This document shows positions 1 to 40,428 of a DNA stretch of 42,836 nucleotides, piece by piece. The notes below the pieces were generated by a model. The model had not been told where the DNA came from, made no database searches, and worked only from the letters and a program-made list of their open reading frames with translations. The position numbers were made by a program, and so were the translations under genes. Numbering within the stretch: the first letter of the stretch is position 1; each line of letters opens with the position of its first letter. The stretch covers positions 1 to 42,836 of the forward strand of contig JAGWRO010000058.1 of assembly GCA_028876495.1 (NCBI GenBank). Direction: 5' to 3'. The stretch comes from Bacteroidota bacterium (GTDB lineage: Bacteria; Bacteroidota; Bacteroidia; Chitinophagales; Chitinophagaceae).

Positions 1-140
1 GGGCTGTCACCCTGAGCCTGTCGAAGGGCTGTCATCCTGAGCCTGTCGAAGGGCTGTCATCCTGAGCCTGTCGAAGGGCTGTCATCCTGAGCCTGTCGAA
101 GGGCTGTCATCCTGAGCCTGTCGAAGGGCTGTCGAAGGGC
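1..140. repeat. Family A repeat: five 25-bp tandem copies plus a partial copy
   Basis: Five near-identical 25-bp units occupy 1-125, each containing CCTGAGCCTGTCGAAGGG. A shortened copy follows at 126-140. Only one position varies (CAC in the first unit, CAT in the rest). The core can fold as CCCT/AGGG with two G.A mismatches and a G-C pair closing a CCTGT loop. The same core recurs at about 1550-1750, 2100-2350, 37.05, 37.14, 38.1, 39.3, 39.4, 41.65 and 42.5 kb. There are no unique spacers, so this is not CRISPR. The array runs off the left edge. Confidence 0.93.
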
Positions 141-225
141 TTTTAATCCGTGCTTGAAAAACCACTAATTTACCCTGGAGTAAAAATAGCCTTGAATAGC
201 CTTCCTTCACCTTTGCTTCAATACG

Positions 226-1518
226 CTACGGAATATAAACGCTTCCTGCATTGCCGGTAACCGGGCCACTGAAGCTGCAATTATCAAAAGTGGCAATTCC
301 CTTAAAATGCAACGTATCCGAATACCTTCCATAATACCTGAACAGGCAATTACTAAATTTGATAAATGGGCTGTTTGAGGTAAATAAAACCTGTCTGCCG
401 GCTATGGAAGTATAGGCAAAATCAAAAACACAATTGCTGATAGAAGTCGGCAATTTGTTTTTACTGTCGCCCGCAGTTATGGTTCCTATACTACCTAAAG
501 ATTCACAATATAAATTGGAAATATGGGTGGGGAACCAGCCTGATTCGGGATTATAGATCAACCGGATGGGCATTCCGGCAATATTACCGCCATCAATTGT
601 ATAATTGCCCGCCTGGTGTTTACCATACATATTGGTAGCAAAAATAGTATGAATGCGCCCCCAGCTATAAAGTCCGCGAATCACATTTCCTTTTTCCTGT
701 GCCTGCCCTGAAGATATTCCCAGCCTCGCATCGCCACAACGGATGTTTTCCATTAAAATAATATCAGCATTGGAAGTAACCCCGTTAGGCGAAATCTCAT
801 AATCAATCGCAAAATTTCCCACATTCAGATCATGTAACTGTACCGCCGTAGAACCTCCTTTGTTTTTCGATCCATCATAATCTATTACGATCCCCGCCAG
901 GTTTTGTCCGGTTGTGGGATCATTATAATCTGAAAAAGGAATGGAATAATAAGCCGACCCGTTCACAGAAGGAGAATGAAAATTTCCTGTCAATGTCAGG
1001 TGATCTATTTCAGCGCCTTTCAGGTACTGGCCTCCCAAAGCAAAATCGTTACCGGTATAATGCAATACGGTACCATCATTCCATATACCTCCCTCCCCGT
1101 AAATATGGATTGACGCGCCAACATAACGATTATGATCTAATACATATATCTTCAATGATTGCGAGAATTTATAAACACCCTTGGGTATAAACAAAGGCAT
1201 CGAATTGATACAAGTGTGGATCGATTGAAGCAACGCTGCTGAATTATCCGGGTTTTGCGGGGAAGCACCATACCACATGGCCGAAAATTCCCTTGCGCGG
1301 CAACCTTCTAATTTTATAGAAGGCTCAAATATCTGAATAAAAGGATTGGCCTCTATCAATGCATTCTTAATGGTGCCTTTCCCCTTGATTTTGGCCGATA
1401 TATGTAAAACCTTTCCCTGCAAATCCCACGTCCCGGAAATCGTGGTATCCCTTGTAACTGACGTAGCGGAAGTTTTAAAAAAAACCAAAACCAGTAAAAA
1501 CAGAATGGAGATTTTCAC
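226..1518 (-). CDS. Secreted right-handed beta-helix (pectate-lyase-like) protein
   Basis: This 430-residue protein starts with a clear export signal: a Lys, then a hydrophobic stretch over residues 4-14, then a small-residue region near 17-20. Around residues 80-120 it has the entry motif of the pectate-lyase/tail-spike superfamily: WYGASP, then NPDNSAALLQSI, then PLFIPKGVYKF. The rest is rich in Asn, Gly and short beta-strand-like segments, as expected for a parallel beta-helix. Such proteins cleave or bind acidic polysaccharides, or act as phage-tail-like depolymerases. No catalytic residues can be assigned by eye. It lies at the distal end of the glycan locus, separated from it by the GIY-YIG gene and repeats, so it may belong to the locus or be independent. 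The start at the signal peptide Met is well supported. Confidence 0.8.
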   Translation of the reverse strand: MKISILFLLVLVFFKTSATSVTRDTTISGTWDLQGKVLHISAKIKGKGTIKNALIEANPFIQIFEPSIKLEGCRAREFSAMWYGASPQNPDNSAALLQSIHTCINSMPLFIPKGVYKFSQSLKIYVLDHNRYVGASIHIYGEGGIWNDGTVLHYTGNDFALGGQYLKGAEIDHLTLTGNFHSPSVNGSAYYSIPFSDYNDPTTGQNLAGIVIDYDGSKNKGGSTAVQLHDLNVGNFAIDYEISPNGVTSNADIILMENIRCGDARLGISSGQAQEKGNVIRGLYSWGRIHTIFATNMYGKHQAGNYTIDGGNIAGMPIRLIYNPESGWFPTHISNLYCESLGSIGTITAGDSKNKLPTSISNCVFDFAYTSIAGRQVLFTSNSPFIKFSNCLFRYYGRYSDTLHFKGIATFDNCSFSGPVTGNAGSVYIP

Positions 1519-1546
1519 AGAATAGAAATTTGAATTATTTATTTAC

Positions 1547-1748
1547 TGTCATCCTGAGCCTGTCGAAGGGCTGTCACCCTGAGCTTGTCGAAGGGCGATT
1601 CAAAAAGTTAATCACCCCGGTAAGTTAATGTCACCCTGAGCTTGTCGAAGGGCGATTCAAAAAGTTGATCATCCCGGTAAATTAATGTCACCCTGAGCCT
1701 GTCGAAGGGCGTTTCAAAAAGTTAATATCAACCTGAGTTTGACGAAGA
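1547..1748. repeat. Family A repeats in a 57-bp tandem arrangement
   Basis: Two short-spaced copies come first. Two full 57-bp units then follow (1574-1630 and 1631-1687). Each joins the CCTGAGC core to a constant tail containing GATTCAAAAAGTT and CCCGGTAA. A third, degenerate unit begins at 1688, and at about 1728-1748 it carries a mutated core (CCTGAGTTTGACGAAG). That last copy lies inside the 3' end of the GIY-YIG gene. The same 57-bp tail reappears on the other side of the gene at 2290-2334. Confidence 0.9.
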
Positions 1749-2060
1749 AGCAGAAGGCGGATGTTCTGTATAATTCTTAGCCAGTTTTTTTATTTCTTCC
1801 CAATCCTCTTTAAAAAGTGCCTCTTTCTTTTTCCTTGACCATCCTTTGATTTGTTTTTCCCATAAGATAGCCTGTTTTATATCTGTCGCATGAATAGAAT
1901 ATTTCAAAGACACCGGCCTTCTCTTAAAAGTATAACATTTGGCATTAAAACCAGTTTCATGTTCCCACAACCTCCTTTCCAGGTTATTGGTTACACCGGT
2001 ATAATAGCTTTTATCACTGCACTCCAGGATATAAACATAATAATGATGACCTTGTTTCAT
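1728..2060 (-). CDS. Solitary GIY-YIG endonuclease-domain protein (UvrC/URI-like small family)
   Basis: This 110-residue protein is a single GIY-YIG domain. It has VYIL at residues 9-12 and YTG at 20-22, then LERRL with the catalytic Arg (29 or 30) and WEKQIKGW with the catalytic Glu at 68. These match the small stand-alone GIY-YIG proteins common in Bacteroidota, which are often annotated as excinuclease subunit C-like. The family hydrolyses DNA using one divalent metal ion. Residues 101-110 (PPSASSSNSG) lie beyond the domain and are encoded by a degenerate family A copy, whose TCA also supplies the reverse-strand stop. The gene is bracketed by oppositely oriented family A cores (about 1732-1747 and 2101-2116) inside a longer array. 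This resembles RAYT transposase/REP arrangements. A role in mobilising the repeat is inference. Confidence 0.9.
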   Translation of the reverse strand: MKQGHHYYVYILECSDKSYYTGVTNNLERRLWEHETGFNAKCYTFKRRPVSLKYSIHATDIKQAILWEKQIKGWSRKKKEALFKEDWEEIKKLAKNYTEHPPSASSSNSG

Positions 2061-2099
2061 TATTTATTCTTTCTTAAAAACCCCTTCATTATAACCCGC

Positions 2100-2117
2100 C
2101 TTCGACAAGCTCAGGCT
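2100..2117. repeat. Family A core in inverted orientation upstream of the GIY-YIG gene
   Basis: CCTTCGACAAGCTCAGG is the reverse complement of the family A core. It lies about 40 bp upstream of the GIY-YIG start codon. Together with the forward copy at 1732-1747 it forms terminal inverted repeats around the gene, matching at about 14 of 16 core positions. It is the only inverted copy in the left array. Confidence 0.9.
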
Positions 2118-2150
2118 GACACTGCAATTAATTGCTTTAGAAGTTACTGT

Positions 2151-2349
2151 CACCCTGAGCCTGTCGAAGGGCTGAGCCTGTCGAAGGGCTGAGCCTGTCG
2201 AAGGGCTGAGCCTGTCGAAGGGCTGAGCCTGTCGAAGGGCTGAGCCTGTCGAAGGGCTGAGCCTGTCGAAGGGCTGAGCCTGTCGAAGGGCGATTCAAAA
2301 AGTTAATCACCCCGGTAAGTTAATGTCACCCTGAGCCTGTCGAAGGGCT
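2151..2349. repeat. Family A array: eight 17-bp copies plus a 57-bp unit
   Basis: Eight direct 17-bp copies of CTGAGCCTGTCGAAGGG run from 2155 to 2290 without interruption. They are followed by the 57-bp-type tail (GATTCAAAAAGTT to CCCGGTAA) and a further core copy at about 2329-2348. The stop codon of the next gene (methyltransferase, minus strand) starts right at the end of this copy. The 17-bp unit is the hairpin alone, without the spacer seen in the 25-bp and 57-bp forms. This suggests expansion by slippage or recombination. Confidence 0.93.
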
Positions 2350-3060
2350 TCATTCAACCCGTTCATAAACAAAAAAATCACAAAAAGGTTGATTGCTGAT
2401 TTGTTCGGACAACCTGAAATTCAAAACATGCTGCTCAATCCATTTGGAAAACCGTCGATGCCGCACATGATATTTCTTTTCCTCATCCACATCCCATGCA
2501 TAAATGATCACATATTTTGTGGCAGCATTAAACAACCCGCTCATGTAACTTTCAAACACTTCATCTTCCACCAGGTGATAAATCACATCAAGCGATAATG
2601 CCAGTTCCCCAAAAAAAAGTTGCCCGTCTTCCGGTAATGTTTTTTGATCACAAACAAAAAAACGCTTAGACAAATCCTCTTTAAAAAGGCCCCTGCATTT
2701 CTTAATAGCTGTTGGTGAAACATCCAGTCCTGTGTAAGATGGGAATCGAAAATAACTGAGTTGATTTCCATCTCCACAGCCAAATTCTATAATGTTTTGT
2801 ATCTTTTTTTTAGCAACAAACCGGTTCAATACAGACGCTTTATACAAAGCCTTTTCACCATATGAGCCTGCGCCTGAATTACCGTTTGTAAGATATCTTT
2901 TCTCCCAGTAACCGGCAGATCCCGGAAAAGCCCTGTTAAAGGTTTTTGTGAATAAATACCTGCTTAACCGGTTGCCCATCAATAACCGGTACCCGGTTTG
3001 TTTCATTGATTTCATGTAGATTCCACTTACTTTTTCATCTCTATTGGCGTACAAAAACAA
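2350..3060 (-). CDS. Class I SAM-dependent methyltransferase
   Basis: This 236-residue protein has a SAM-binding motif I at residues 90-98 (IIEFGCGDG) and an acidic motif II near YTGLDVSP. A motif IV-like segment follows (LALSLDVIYHLVED). The upstream YWEKRY...NSGAGSYG segment is typical of small-molecule and glycan-locus methyltransferases of the Methyltransf_25 type. The likely role is methylation of a sugar or lipid intermediate, but the substrate cannot be read. It is the last gene of the glycan block and lies 34 nt after the polymerase-like gene. The start is uncertain: residues 16 and 19 are also Met, and homology is expected to begin near there. The stop codon abuts the family A repeat. 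Confidence 0.85.
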   Translation of the reverse strand: MFLYANRDEKVSGIYMKSMKQTGYRLLMGNRLSRYLFTKTFNRAFPGSAGYWEKRYLTNGNSGAGSYGEKALYKASVLNRFVAKKKIQNIIEFGCGDGNQLSYFRFPSYTGLDVSPTAIKKCRGLFKEDLSKRFFVCDQKTLPEDGQLFFGELALSLDVIYHLVEDEVFESYMSGLFNAATKYVIIYAWDVDEEKKYHVRHRRFSKWIEQHVLNFRLSEQISNQPFCDFFVYERVE

Positions 3061-36990: not shown

Positions 36991-37237
36991 TCATCATTCA
37001 ATGTTCCTTGTTCGATATTCATTATTCAAACTCTAACTCTTAACTCCTAAACACCCTTCGTCAGGCCCAGGATGACATTCACTAAACCGGAAATTTAAAC
37101 TCATAACTGATAACCTTCAACTGATAACTTTTAACTCCTAAACACCCTTCGACAAGCTCAGGATGACATTAAGTTAGCCGAAACTTATAACTTATGACTT
37201 AAACCTTTAAACTTTCAACACCCTTTCAACAAGCTGT
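36991..37237. repeat. Mixed dispersed repeats (families D and A) upstream of the glycan block
   Basis: This stretch holds a family D copy (TTCCTTGTTCGATATTCATT near 37003-37024) and inverted family A cores at 37052-37076 (CTTCGTCAGGCCCAGG variant) and 37143-37168 (CTTCGACAAGCTCAGG). A decayed third family A copy lies near 37217-37235. Between them are AT-rich, low-complexity TAACT-type strings. No gene is seen. The promoter of the glycan block may lie here, but no TAnnTTTG element was recognised on the minus strand. Confidence 0.8.
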
Positions 37238-37256: not shown

Positions 37257-37715
37257 TTATTCTTCACCTGCATTTCGCAATATTTCCTCTATTATTTTCG
37301 GGTTTATTCTAAATCCAATTTCAGCTAATTGTAAGACTTTTTGTTTCAATGAATTTATTAGACCTTTTTCTTTTAGCTTAAATAAGACACCCAATGTGCC
37401 TGTTATTTTAAATCCTAATGCAATTGCCTCTTTTCTTGCTTTTAAATCATCAATGATTAAAATTACATCGTCAAAACTGTAGGCTAATGCAATAGCTGAG
37501 GCTTCCCCCGGATCTAATGTAAGCGATAATACGGCTTGAATGGTTATATTGAGTGGTTCCTGTATAAGTATCCAATCTGGTAATGCAAGCTGAAATTCTT
37601 CTTCGATTTTTTTTGTAATATAGATTTGATGGTATAAATCCTGAATTTCATCAAATAAATGCATTTTCTGAATTGCAATAAGAAAACTCGTATCTGCAAT
37701 TACGATCCTAGGCAT
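37257..37715 (-). CDS. PIN-like DUF3368 toxin of a type II toxin-antitoxin pair
   Basis: This 152-residue protein has the PIN-like N-terminal strand MPRIVIADTSFLIAI with Asp8. LTLDPGEASAIALA near 84-97 carries the next acidic residues, and VILIIDDLKARKEA near 105-118 the final Asp pair. GFKITGTLGVLFKLKEKGLI is the DUF3368 hallmark. PIN-type toxins act as RNases, but the target is unknown. The gene overlaps the UPF0175 antitoxin gene by 8 nt, the standard order with antitoxin first. Confidence 0.9.
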   Translation of the reverse strand: MPRIVIADTSFLIAIQKMHLFDEIQDLYHQIYITKKIEEEFQLALPDWILIQEPLNITIQAVLSLTLDPGEASAIALAYSFDDVILIIDDLKARKEAIALGFKITGTLGVLFKLKEKGLINSLKQKVLQLAEIGFRINPKIIEEILRNAGEE

Positions 37716-37935
37716 TTGAAATATCTGATTTCAAATCATTTAAAGATTCTCCAAATGCTGAGACACCATAATGCCCTAATATTTCAATAAAAGCCCTTTT
37801 TGAAATGCCCGCAATTTCCGCTGCCTGGCCTGCTGATAATATAGCATCCTCATAAAGCTTTGCTGCAAGATAGATTTGCACGTCAAATGTTTTGGTATTT
37901 ATTTGGGGAGGAATATTTATAGTTAGAGTGTCCAT
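37708..37935 (-). CDS. UPF0175-family antitoxin
   Basis: This 75-residue protein has the UPF0175 pattern: LAAKLYEDAILSAGQAAEIAGISKRAFIEIL at about 28-58, then a GVS-type tail near LGHYGVSAF. The segment SAGQAAEIAGIS is a small helix-turn-helix-like unit. Members neutralise DUF3368 toxins and probably repress their own operon. It directly precedes and overlaps the toxin gene by 8 nt. A weak -7-like element lies 22 bp upstream of its start. Confidence 0.9.
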   Translation of the reverse strand: MDTLTINIPPQINTKTFDVQIYLAAKLYEDAILSAGQAAEIAGISKRAFIEILGHYGVSAFGESLNDLKSDISNA

Positions 37936-38108: not shown

Positions 38109-38134
38109 CACCCTTCGACAGGCTCAGGGTGACA
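38109..38134. repeat. Family A repeat, single inverted copy
   Basis: CACCCTTCGACAGGCTCAGG followed by GTGACA is a full-length, undamaged family A core in the reverse orientation. It sits alone in the 531-bp gap between the toxin-antitoxin pair and the LmbE gene. Confidence 0.9.
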
Positions 38135-39265: not shown

Positions 39266-39420
39266 TTGTATTTCATTTTTGTGCTCTTTGTGCCTTTGCG
39301 GTTACTTTTCTTCCCTCCTGAGCCCGTCGAAGGACTTTTATTTCGCAGAAATAATCTTTGTGCCCTTAGCGCCTTTGTGGTATCCCTTTTTCTCTTTGTC
39401 CTCTGAGCCTGTCGAAGGGT
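39266..39420. repeat. Composite: family A copies inserted in family C-type repeats
   Basis: Family C-like right arms (TTTGTGCCTTTGCGGTTAC near 39286 and CCTTTGTGGTATCCC near 39372) alternate with family A cores at 39317-39333 and 39401-39419. The middle piece TTTCGCAGAAATAAT resembles the central hairpin of family C. The pattern suggests family A insertion into an older family C element. No gene is seen in the remaining gap up to 39541. Confidence 0.7.
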
Positions 39421-39541: not shown

Positions 39542-40177
39542 TTAGAATGAAGCAAATAATTTTTGGGGACTACGTACCATTTCAACTATCCTGGATTCTA
39601 TTTGTTTCCATACAATAGGCTGGTTGTGAAATTGAACATCCACATCAAAATTAATATCTTCAAAATAGCACAACGATTTGAGTGCAATCACTGAGTTGTT
39701 ATTTGGATATTTTTTTCCAAAAAAATCAAGCATTTGTTGTAAAGAAAAATAACCAGATAGAAAGGCAACATCTGCATAATCTTTTAGCCTGGTGCCATTT
39801 CCAACAATTGCATTTAATTTCATGGCAGCAATATCTTCCATTCCTGCCATCCTGATTCCTTCTTCTGTAAAAGTATCCCTAAGCCACTTGTATTGATGGC
39901 TGATAATATCTACTTTAATATTATTTACTGTGCCCATTAATGCATTTCTGAATCTTGTCTGAACTTTAAAATCATAATTGTTTTCTAAAAACTCTGCCAT
40001 CCTTTCAGAATCAAAAGGATTCGAAGAAAAAAGATCAATATCAATGCTTTTTCTATGGCCAATTTGCATTGCCAATGCTGTACCGCCCACCAATACAAAA
40101 TCATTCAACTCCTGGTGCTTACAAAGCTGTCGGATTAATCTAAAAAATTCCGGGCTAACCGTTTCCGTGTATAACAT
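39542..40177 (-). CDS. AbiEii/AbiGii-type nucleotidyltransferase toxin
   Basis: This 211-residue protein has the nucleotidyltransferase core FVLVGGTALAMQIGHR at 27-42, followed by IDIDLFS with Asp46 and Asp48. It is the AbiEii toxin fold. Further support comes from DIAAMKLNAIVGNGTRLKDYAD near 115-140. Relatives modify RNA (MenA/AbiEii block tRNA or translation) and can protect against phage or act as toxin-antitoxin systems. It overlaps the upstream DUF6922 gene by 43 nt, so the two are translated from one message. The start is the Met just before YTETVSPEFF, and a later start is less likely. Confidence 0.92.
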   Translation of the reverse strand: MLYTETVSPEFFRLIRQLCKHQELNDFVLVGGTALAMQIGHRKSIDIDLFSSNPFDSERMAEFLENNYDFKVQTRFRNALMGTVNNIKVDIISHQYKWLRDTFTEEGIRMAGMEDIAAMKLNAIVGNGTRLKDYADVAFLSGYFSLQQMLDFFGKKYPNNNSVIALKSLCYFEDINFDVDVQFHNQPIVWKQIESRIVEMVRSPQKLFASF

Positions 40178-40428
40178 TTCAATTCGTTGAGCGGAATATC
40201 AAAATAAATATTGACAAAAGCAATGTCTCTTTTTTCCAAATATGGGATTTGTCTTATAATACTTTTTAGTTCCTGAATTCCATAATGATCTGTTACTTCT
40301 TTGATCGCATTTAGAGACCCACGTTGTATTACACGTTCCACTATCAATTGCTTATGCCTGTTCCAGTCTAATTTAGAAATATCAATATCCCAGAAGAGCG
40401 AAGAGGAGATGTTGGAAGAAACTACCAT
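40135..40428 (-). CDS. DUF6922-like protein, probable antitoxin of the AbiEii-type pair
   Basis: This 97-residue protein has LFWDIDISKLDWNRHKQLIVERV at about 11-33, then a GSLNAIKEVTDHYG segment and LEKRDIAFVNIYFDIPL. The wording FWD, LD, H, IxERV, RG and YG matches the DUF6922 family that regularly precedes AbiEii-like toxins in Bacteroidota. It probably neutralises the toxin and may bind DNA. The 43-nt overlap with the toxin gene is long and points to strict coupling. Confidence 0.85.
   Translation of the reverse strand: MVVSSNISSSLFWDIDISKLDWNRHKQLIVERVIQRGSLNAIKEVTDHYGIQELKSIIRQIPYLEKRDIAFVNIYFDIPLNELKCYTRKRLARNFLD

Follow-up and report, generated by a model that had tools for sequence, protein, structure and literature searches.

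The window analysed here, the whole stretch of 42,836 nt, is contig C46 of a 4.70-Mb draft genome that is 99.96% complete. As a preliminary description of this DNA had claimed, it carries a gene for a 110-residue GIY-YIG protein, for which PF01541 is the sole Pfam match, and this gene lies among short hairpin repeats (Table 1). On the gene strand the upstream hairpin reads TGTCA-GCCT-GA-G-CTTGT-C-GA-AGGC and ends 37 bases before the reading frame; without its tag this intact copy spans 2098–2116 on the minus strand. The intact copies downstream, the first of them at 1686–1709, read TGTCA-CCCT-GA-G-C(C/T)TGT-C-GA-AGGG and face the upstream hairpin.

Table 1. Positions of the nuclease gene and hairpin copies in the window, and of tandem arrays of other GIY-YIG genes.
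Feature	Position	Strand	Remarks
GIY-YIG nuclease ORF, 110 aa	1728..2060	-	PF01541, E 5e-16; last codons from decayed hairpin copy
Intact hairpin, TGTCA tag, stem GCCT/AGGC, loop CTTGT	2098..2121	-	upstream of gene
Intact hairpin, TGTCA tag, stem CCCT/AGGG, loop CCTGT	1686..1709	+	downstream of gene, faces upstream one
Decayed hairpin copy, stem now unpaired	1732..1747	+	overlaps 3' end of ORF
Three more tagged hairpins in direct order (1553, 1577, 1634)	1547..1652	+	downstream of gene
Upstream array: tagged hairpins at 2153 and 2329, between them seven 17-bp tandem copies (2171-2288)	2148..2347	+	
Five-hairpin tagged array	10..127	+	core matches in window
Tagged hairpin, dispersed	37146..37162	-	core matches in window
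Tagged hairpin, dispersed, 6-bp stem	38109..38131	-	core matches in window
Dispersed hairpin, no recognisable tag	39316..39334	+	core matches in window
GIY-YIG tandem arrays	L296 (G051:C19:258126-260071); G085:C1:4316286-4317708; G172:C11:1119610-1120569; G174:C2:31062-32289; G342:C29:73647-74984		

The preliminary description had the gene bracketed by oppositely oriented cores of a repeat that it called family A. The inverted bracketing is confirmed, with core CCTGAGTTTGACGAAG at 1732–1747 and the opposite core CTTCGACAAGCTCAGG at 2100–2115, one base off the 2101–2116 first given. The core at 1732–1747 is indeed present, but this copy is decayed and encodes the last codons of the gene, and the nearest intact downstream partner is at 1691–1709. 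Since the decayed copy forms the 3' end of the reading frame (1728–1747), a repeat has here been turned into coding sequence. Direct arrays are seen outside the brackets on both sides, as had been reported. The 'nine other places' attributed to family A are nine copies with at most one mismatch, but only five places: five copies lie in the array at 11–126, and the others are at 37147, 38113, 39317 and 39402. Core copies at 37056 and 41658 have two mismatches each. Allowing up to two mismatches, core CTTCGACARGCTCAGG has 26 matches in the window and none in six Markov-shuffled windows, and CTTCGACAAGCTCAGG has 55 matches in the genome (21 + 34) and none with a reversed-pattern control. Two arrangements that could be toxin-antitoxin pairs also lie among the dispersed copies: at 39542–40428 an AbiEii-like nucleotidyltransferase ORF directly preceded by one of 97 aa, and at 37257–37935 a DUF3368 ORF directly preceded by one of 75 aa.

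Five residues of the protein, Y10, Y20, G22, H34 and E68, which we take to be catalytic, are invariant among 59 sequences, and R30 is present in at least 90% of them. An AlphaFold2 model has a mean pLDDT of 88.3, and the nearest solved structures are UPF0213 proteins 1zg2 and 1ywl, followed by SLX1. By its domain, its conserved Tyr, Arg and Glu residues and its fold, the bracketed protein belongs to the GIY-YIG superfamily and is a predicted nuclease. Five of six Chryseobacterium orthologues were used to estimate dN/dS (the sixth, L210, was missed by the motif used), and the ratio is 0.07–0.22 in nine of the ten pairs and undefined in the tenth; judged by these ratios, the gene is under purifying selection.

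To compare this locus with its relatives we searched 195 genomes of the same bacterial family by tblastn with the window protein, which gave 75 matches in 54 genomes, from which 30 loci were taken, one per genome (L001–L030). GTDB species genomes were scanned with a 24-row alignment and a pattern including W-[SR]-R, and the best 80 of 527 relatives were added (L031–L110); removal of duplicates L037, L038 and L078 left 107 loci, mostly from Bacteroidota. In Pseudomonadota, the phylum of a Litorilituus genome, 231 of 398 genomes have a match, and 30 loci (L245–L274), again one per genome, were drawn from these. The protein motif W-x-R-x-K-[KR], located after E68, is present in 101 of the 107 and 29 of the 30 associated proteins (130/137) and in none of 26 lower-scoring GIY-YIG proteins, and a looser form in 104/107 and 30/30 (134/137) against 1/26, with the motif present in L031–L110 by construction because these were found with a pattern that holds it. 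It is a candidate determinant of hairpin recognition.

The literal family A sequence is found at only some of the relatives' loci, and hairpins of the same grammar at nearly every one. This grammar is constant and its sequence variable: a tag, a paired stem, GA, a closing pair, a loop, the closing pair, GA and the returning stem. The tags are GTCA or TGTCA in the window and CGTC, TGTC or CCTC elsewhere, and the loops in relatives commonly have 3, 5 or 6 bases, or are long. We examined pairing at every occurrence of GTCA NNNN GAG N5 CGA NNNN in the loci taken, pairing not being required, and in these 208 sites from 53 loci the stem positions pair in 94, 96, 92 and 90% of cases from inner to outer, as against 90, 76, 26 and 34% when the 3' arms are shuffled. 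The corresponding values for N6 loops (112 sites, 33 loci) are 94, 88, 86 and 80% against 74, 60, 31 and 33%; not all sites are independent, because several come from one locus. Calculated DNA folding energies of six oligonucleotides fall within the range of shuffled sequences, so that the case for hairpin formation rests on covariation, which shows that the hairpins are maintained as paired structures.

When all 16 dinucleotides were tried as the internal mismatch, only GA/GA (equivalent to TC/TC on the opposite strand) was enriched, with a density of 3.99/kb in the flanks of 137 GIY-YIG genes and 0.17/kb for 732 random ORFs. The closing pair is GC in 492 cases, CG in 23, AT in 21 and TA in 5. 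Left and right stems of a locus usually differ (the inner three bases are the same in 17 of 58 pairs), and therefore recognition cannot rest on stem sequence. Sheared G.A pairs can stack in a folded strand. With GA on both sides of one strand the hairpin does not form a duplex palindrome and can stack when folded, which makes a folded single strand or a cruciform the likelier substrate of the putative nuclease, rather than a duplex.

For the main comparison, hairpins with a loop of up to about 45 bases and a stem of at least 4 were sought within 300 bases of each gene. At least one is present at 104 of the 107 GIY-YIG loci, hairpins are on both sides at 79, and at 65 they face each other (plus upstream, minus downstream). 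The nearest upstream hairpin is in the plus orientation, towards the gene, in 62 of 79 cases (p = 4e-7), and the nearest downstream one in the minus orientation, back towards the gene, in 65 of 81 (p = 4e-8). Random ORFs of at least 200 aa (n = 237), sampled from twenty 20-kb stretches of this bacterial family, have any hairpin in 20 cases and none on both sides or facing, and 26 lower-scoring GIY-YIG genes (20 loci and six more, with profile E of about 1e-12 to 1e-17, mostly in other clades of the tree) have any in two cases and likewise none on both sides or facing. Thus, once family A is widened to the hairpin grammar, homologues do mostly have flanking copies, as the preliminary description supposed. 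The 30 Pseudomonadota loci have a hairpin in 26 cases, on both sides in 21 and facing in 14, and 495 random ORFs from 20 stretches of that phylum have 78, one and one, respectively. Tagged GA hairpins occur at 0.15 and 0.27/kb beside random genes and at 6.04 and 3.91/kb at the GIY-YIG loci.

We also measured the association independently of any motif, by scoring the best ungapped match of one flank to the other in inverted orientation. A score of at least 15 is reached by 58/107 and 21/30 GIY-YIG loci, by none of the random ORFs (0/237 and 0/495) and by 4/26 lower-scoring GIY-YIG genes; at a score of at least 18 the numbers are 28/107 and 16/30, with none in either random set or among the lower-scoring genes. 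Among the 96 of the 107 loci that have long enough flanks on both sides, 58 have an inverted match of at least 15 between their own flanks, compared with 62 of 474 with swapped partners. Direct, same-strand matches of at least 15 are frequent too (58/96), because many loci hold arrays. The association of this GIY-YIG clade with the hairpins is as good as certain, and in layout the gene and its inverted hairpins make up one unit, hairpin > gene < hairpin, in which each tag is on the side away from the gene.

The repeats might instead be common transcription terminators, or RNA hairpins, that lie by chance on either side of a small gene: they are intergenic and partly self-complementary, and in the intergenic DNA of two Chryseobacterium loci (L169 and L171) there are terminator-like sequences that begin like the hairpin. 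Such an origin would leave the one-sided tag, the strand-specific GA/GA and the facing orientation without explanation; facing pairs are nearly absent around random genes, and nothing in positions 1–3000 of the window reached the gathering score in Rfam. We regard it as extremely improbable.

The preliminary description likened the layout to that of RAYT genes with their REPs, and the layouts are alike, but the 30 RAYT genes taken from this bacterial family are not themselves arranged in this way. With a motif of shorter loop and a stem of 3, only 2 of 30 RAYT (PF01797) genes have any hairpin and none has hairpins on both sides, whereas the same motif finds any hairpin at 89/107 and both sides at 71/107 GIY-YIG loci. 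RAYTs as the real partner of the hairpins were rejected on this ground.

The association extends beyond Bacteroidota. Pseudomonadota repeats are exemplified by CCTCATCCTGAGGTG...CCTCGAAGGA and CGTTTGTCCCGAGCGAAGTCGAGGGAC. In the phylum of a Janibacter genome 26 of 246 genomes match, and among 30 loci an inverted-arm score of at least 15 is found at 9 of 14 with high-scoring and 0 of 16 with low-scoring GIY-YIG genes; hairpins of any kind are at 11/14 and 6/16, respectively, and on both sides at 7/14 and 0/16. The named GTDB loci also include records from Nitrospinaceae, Ignavibacteria, Chlorobiota and Eremiobacterota. Relatives are few in plasmid (15) and phage (23) records, and of four plasmid loci examined among the 15, three have inverted arms scoring at least 16 and one (L213) scored 8. 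Two Methylobacterium loci (L211 and L214) have repeats of the CCTCATCCTGAGGTG...CCTCGAAGGA type beside GIY-YIG genes, with the GA grammar and a long loop. As a separate observation, short lower-scoring GIY-YIG genes occur in tandem arrays of three or four, about 350–600 bp apart, without the hairpins (Table 1).

If the hairpins are cognate to the nuclease, hairpin type and nuclease lineage should correspond. When the loop classes of the 133 associated genes are placed on a 148-protein tree, they require 33 changes, as against 54–72 in 200 shuffles, and the named GTDB set alone (n = 75) requires 15 against 29–40; the class is that of the commonest hairpin found, so that crowded arrays may be miscalled 'long', and a second, similar tree has few columns and many open forks. 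For some clade members no such hairpin was seen (15 of the 148 tree rows). Paralogues within one genome bear different hairpins: in G343, L221 has 5-nt loops and L228 long loops, and in G099 L215 and L231 carry different types. In seven genomes with clear repeats (G205, G218 and G340–G344) the commonest loop of the dispersed copies, judged by eye among the matches listed, is that seen beside the genome's own gene; the Janibacter genome (G207) was set aside, its listed places being chance-like. A generic hairpin pattern exceeds its reversed control in 24 of 24 named genomes of the first search; in the 12 records of a second search it does so in all but three, being at control level in G336 and G337, which have the gene, and absent from plasmid record W02. 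These comparisons indicate that loop type follows the nuclease clade and that copies are scattered through the genomes that bear it.

Copy number follows the gene as well. The pattern CTGAGCN{2,3}GTCGAAG has a mean of 38 and a median of 17 copies in 23 close-clade genomes, and a mean of 3.2 and a median of 0 in the other 172 (Mann-Whitney p = 2e-11). At least five copies are present in 17 of the 23 and 27 of the 172, and the repeat is thus rarer where the gene is lacking, in line with the preliminary description. Fifteen genomes have at least 10 copies and no strong hit, and in three of these (G023, G072 and G133) a search for GIY-YIG gives no hit at E<=1e-6. The presence of a RAYT is also correlated with copy number, though less strongly (mean 9.5 versus 1.2, p = 0.0025; p = 0.046 among genomes without the strong clade). 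This correlation, the abundance of RAYT-type genes in the family (PF01797 has matches in 144 of its 195 genomes) and a MITE in G343 that carries hairpin pairs (see below) would suit a reading in which the hairpins are spread by another enzyme, whether a RAYT or one not yet described, while the GIY-YIG gene merely sits in repeat-rich intergenic DNA. We consider it very unlikely, given that none of the 30 RAYT genes and none of the 26 lower-scoring GIY-YIG genes is bracketed, that loop class tracks the nuclease tree, and that the paralogues of single genomes (L221/L228 and L215/L231) have different hairpin types.

Evidence bearing on mobility comes from a Chryseobacterium unit (L077) located between two conserved genes. 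Its joined flanks, or part of them, matched in all 118 genomes of the genus. Of the first 30 of 50 site loci, one is from the genome of the reference itself and the other 29 show 45–101 bp at the site and no unit, three of them (L169, L171 and L178) with hairpin-like remnants. The next 20 loci were selected for having a gap there; G219, G297, G256 and G317 carry an orthologous unit, as does G285, with one hairpin recognised, while G293 (L205) retains both hairpins with no GIY-YIG frame found in the interval and may illustrate how pairs without a gene come about. The remaining 14 have other inserts, in which the motif is absent. Occupied and empty alleles therefore occur at a single intergenic site; the empty sites did not reveal exact insertion boundaries or any target duplication, because the intergenic DNA has diverged.

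Comparison of G195 with G219 shows a unit that is 97–100% identical per 60-bp block over the left hairpin and the gene, and fully identical as far as some 70 bases past the right hairpin, between genes whose 60-bp blocks are 77–98% identical, with a mean of about 88% (a difference of about 12%). A near-identical unit amid diverged flanks indicates that the unit was recently transferred or converted. Within 400 kb of Mucilaginibacter genome G214 there are 22 tagged hairpins, including seven facing pairs 21–23 bases apart that, judged by eye, share their interior and not their flanking sequence, as expected of a small non-autonomous element; in this one genome, 8 of 10 neighbouring hairpins less than 120 bp apart are in plus-minus order. 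The fixed 49-bp spacing of 16 pairs in G343 (Flavobacteriaceae) was considered as an instance of REPIN mobility and rejected, since the pairs sit inside a larger MITE, about 130 bp long and ending in sequences like AGAGGCTGTCTAAAAAGTG, that has captured a hairpin pair at fixed spacing (L315–L329). Because this MITE has ends of its own, some of the spread has another cause. The case for mobility is built on a single polymorphic site, a single unit of recent transfer and the dispersed pairs of one genome.

An alternative without movement is that the protein is a domesticated host nuclease and the hairpins are regulatory or protein-binding sites, for control of its own gene and at dispersed positions. 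The purifying selection and the retention of the gene at one site in several Chryseobacterium species are consistent with this, and a similar proposal has been made for RAYTs (PMC8266576). Units are nevertheless missing from the same site in relatives, one has recently moved or been converted (G195/G219), and the dispersed pairs of G214 have a similar interior and unrelated flanks; we think domestication of this kind unlikely.

We conclude with considerable confidence that a clade of small GIY-YIG proteins is the dedicated partner, and putative enzyme, of a large class of tagged GA-mismatch hairpins. A widespread class of hairpin repeats in bacteria probably has its missing partner in this predicted nuclease. 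DNA is hydrolysed by GIY-YIG enzymes, which are not known to form the covalent intermediate used by RAYTs, and for this reason we propose a copy-by-repair route. The nuclease would recognise the hairpin, either single-stranded or as a cruciform, by its tag, tandem G.A pair and loop, and would cut there or immediately next to it. Repair of the break with another copy as template would then spread the hairpins and their facing pairs in a homing-like manner. Gene-less facing pairs would represent the non-autonomous form. Cutting with repair-driven spread by the nuclease is a plausible mechanism.

With less assurance, we lean towards a broader proposal, in which this clade, present in three phyla or more, is responsible for mobilising or maintaining a second tagged REP superfamily composed of the orphan CGTC repeats and their GA-mismatch relatives, as an analogue of the REPtron with an unrelated enzyme and hydrolytic chemistry. 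This would explain many of the abundant short repeats of Bacteroidota and Alphaproteobacteria. If so, proteins annotated only as 'GIY-YIG nuclease family protein' would acquire a function, and the REP life style would have arisen with two unrelated enzymes. The nuclease clade is now defined by a testable signature and by its probable cognate hairpins. Among the matches listed in a literature search, with preprints and most subscription papers outside its coverage, there was no paper linking GIY-YIG proteins with RAYT, REPIN, COG2827 or REP-like repeats, and none that by its title was related to the literal core sequence.

Several known systems share features with the one described here. UPF0213-type GIY-YIG proteins and SLX1, a nuclease of branched DNA, have the same fold, but the W-x-R-x-K-[KR] motif belongs to the hairpin-associated clade. 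Free-standing GIY-YIG homing endonucleases resemble it in having a single gene, occupied and empty alleles, and one near-identical tract around the gene; we know of no homing element that includes brackets of dispersed cognate hairpins.

The repeats overlap with the CGTC-tagged REP superfamily, to judge from a comparison of described features. According to PMC3733652 those REPs, which comprise four families and count dRS3 of Neisseria and RPE of Rickettsia among their members, have TGTC and CCTC variants, form mostly facing (HH) dimers, are common in Alphaproteobacteria and occur in Bacteroidetes too, and consist of an 8–9 bp stem with AT in the first and second position and a 4–5 nt loop; unpaired CGTC/TGTC/CCTC tags, facing pairs and hosts agree with those seen here. 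The flanks of one GIY-YIG paralogue (L240) contain CGTCATTCCCGTGAAAACGGGAATCC, with a CGTC tag, an 8-bp stem starting with AT, a 4-nt loop and a CC tail, and another locus (L233) is flanked by CGTCATGCTGAACTTGTTTCAGCAT, with an 8-bp stem and a 5-nt loop. Most hairpins here differ in having a shorter outer stem and GA/GA instead of that 8–9 bp stem. We also propose a nuclease partner, whereas the CGTC-tagged REPs are reported to have no associated transposase genes (Di Nocera 2013, PMC3733652).

The closest resemblance is to the RAYT/REPtron system, in which one nuclease gene likewise lies near inverted tagged hairpins dispersed in the genome. As described in PMC8266576 and PMC3733652, the palindrome of a REP is preceded by a conserved tetranucleotide, the stem of the E. 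coli type holds an internal mismatch, and facing pairs are found genome-wide. The enzyme there is an HUH (Y1) tyrosine transposase and here a GIY-YIG protein, so that the chemistry should differ; the tag is GTAG there and GTCA, TGTC, CGTC or CCTC here, and the internal mismatch here is a tandem GA. The layout equals that of a REPtron, but because enzyme and tag differ it is not one, and the GIY-YIG/hairpin system is best read as an analogue, not a member, of the RAYT/REPtron group.
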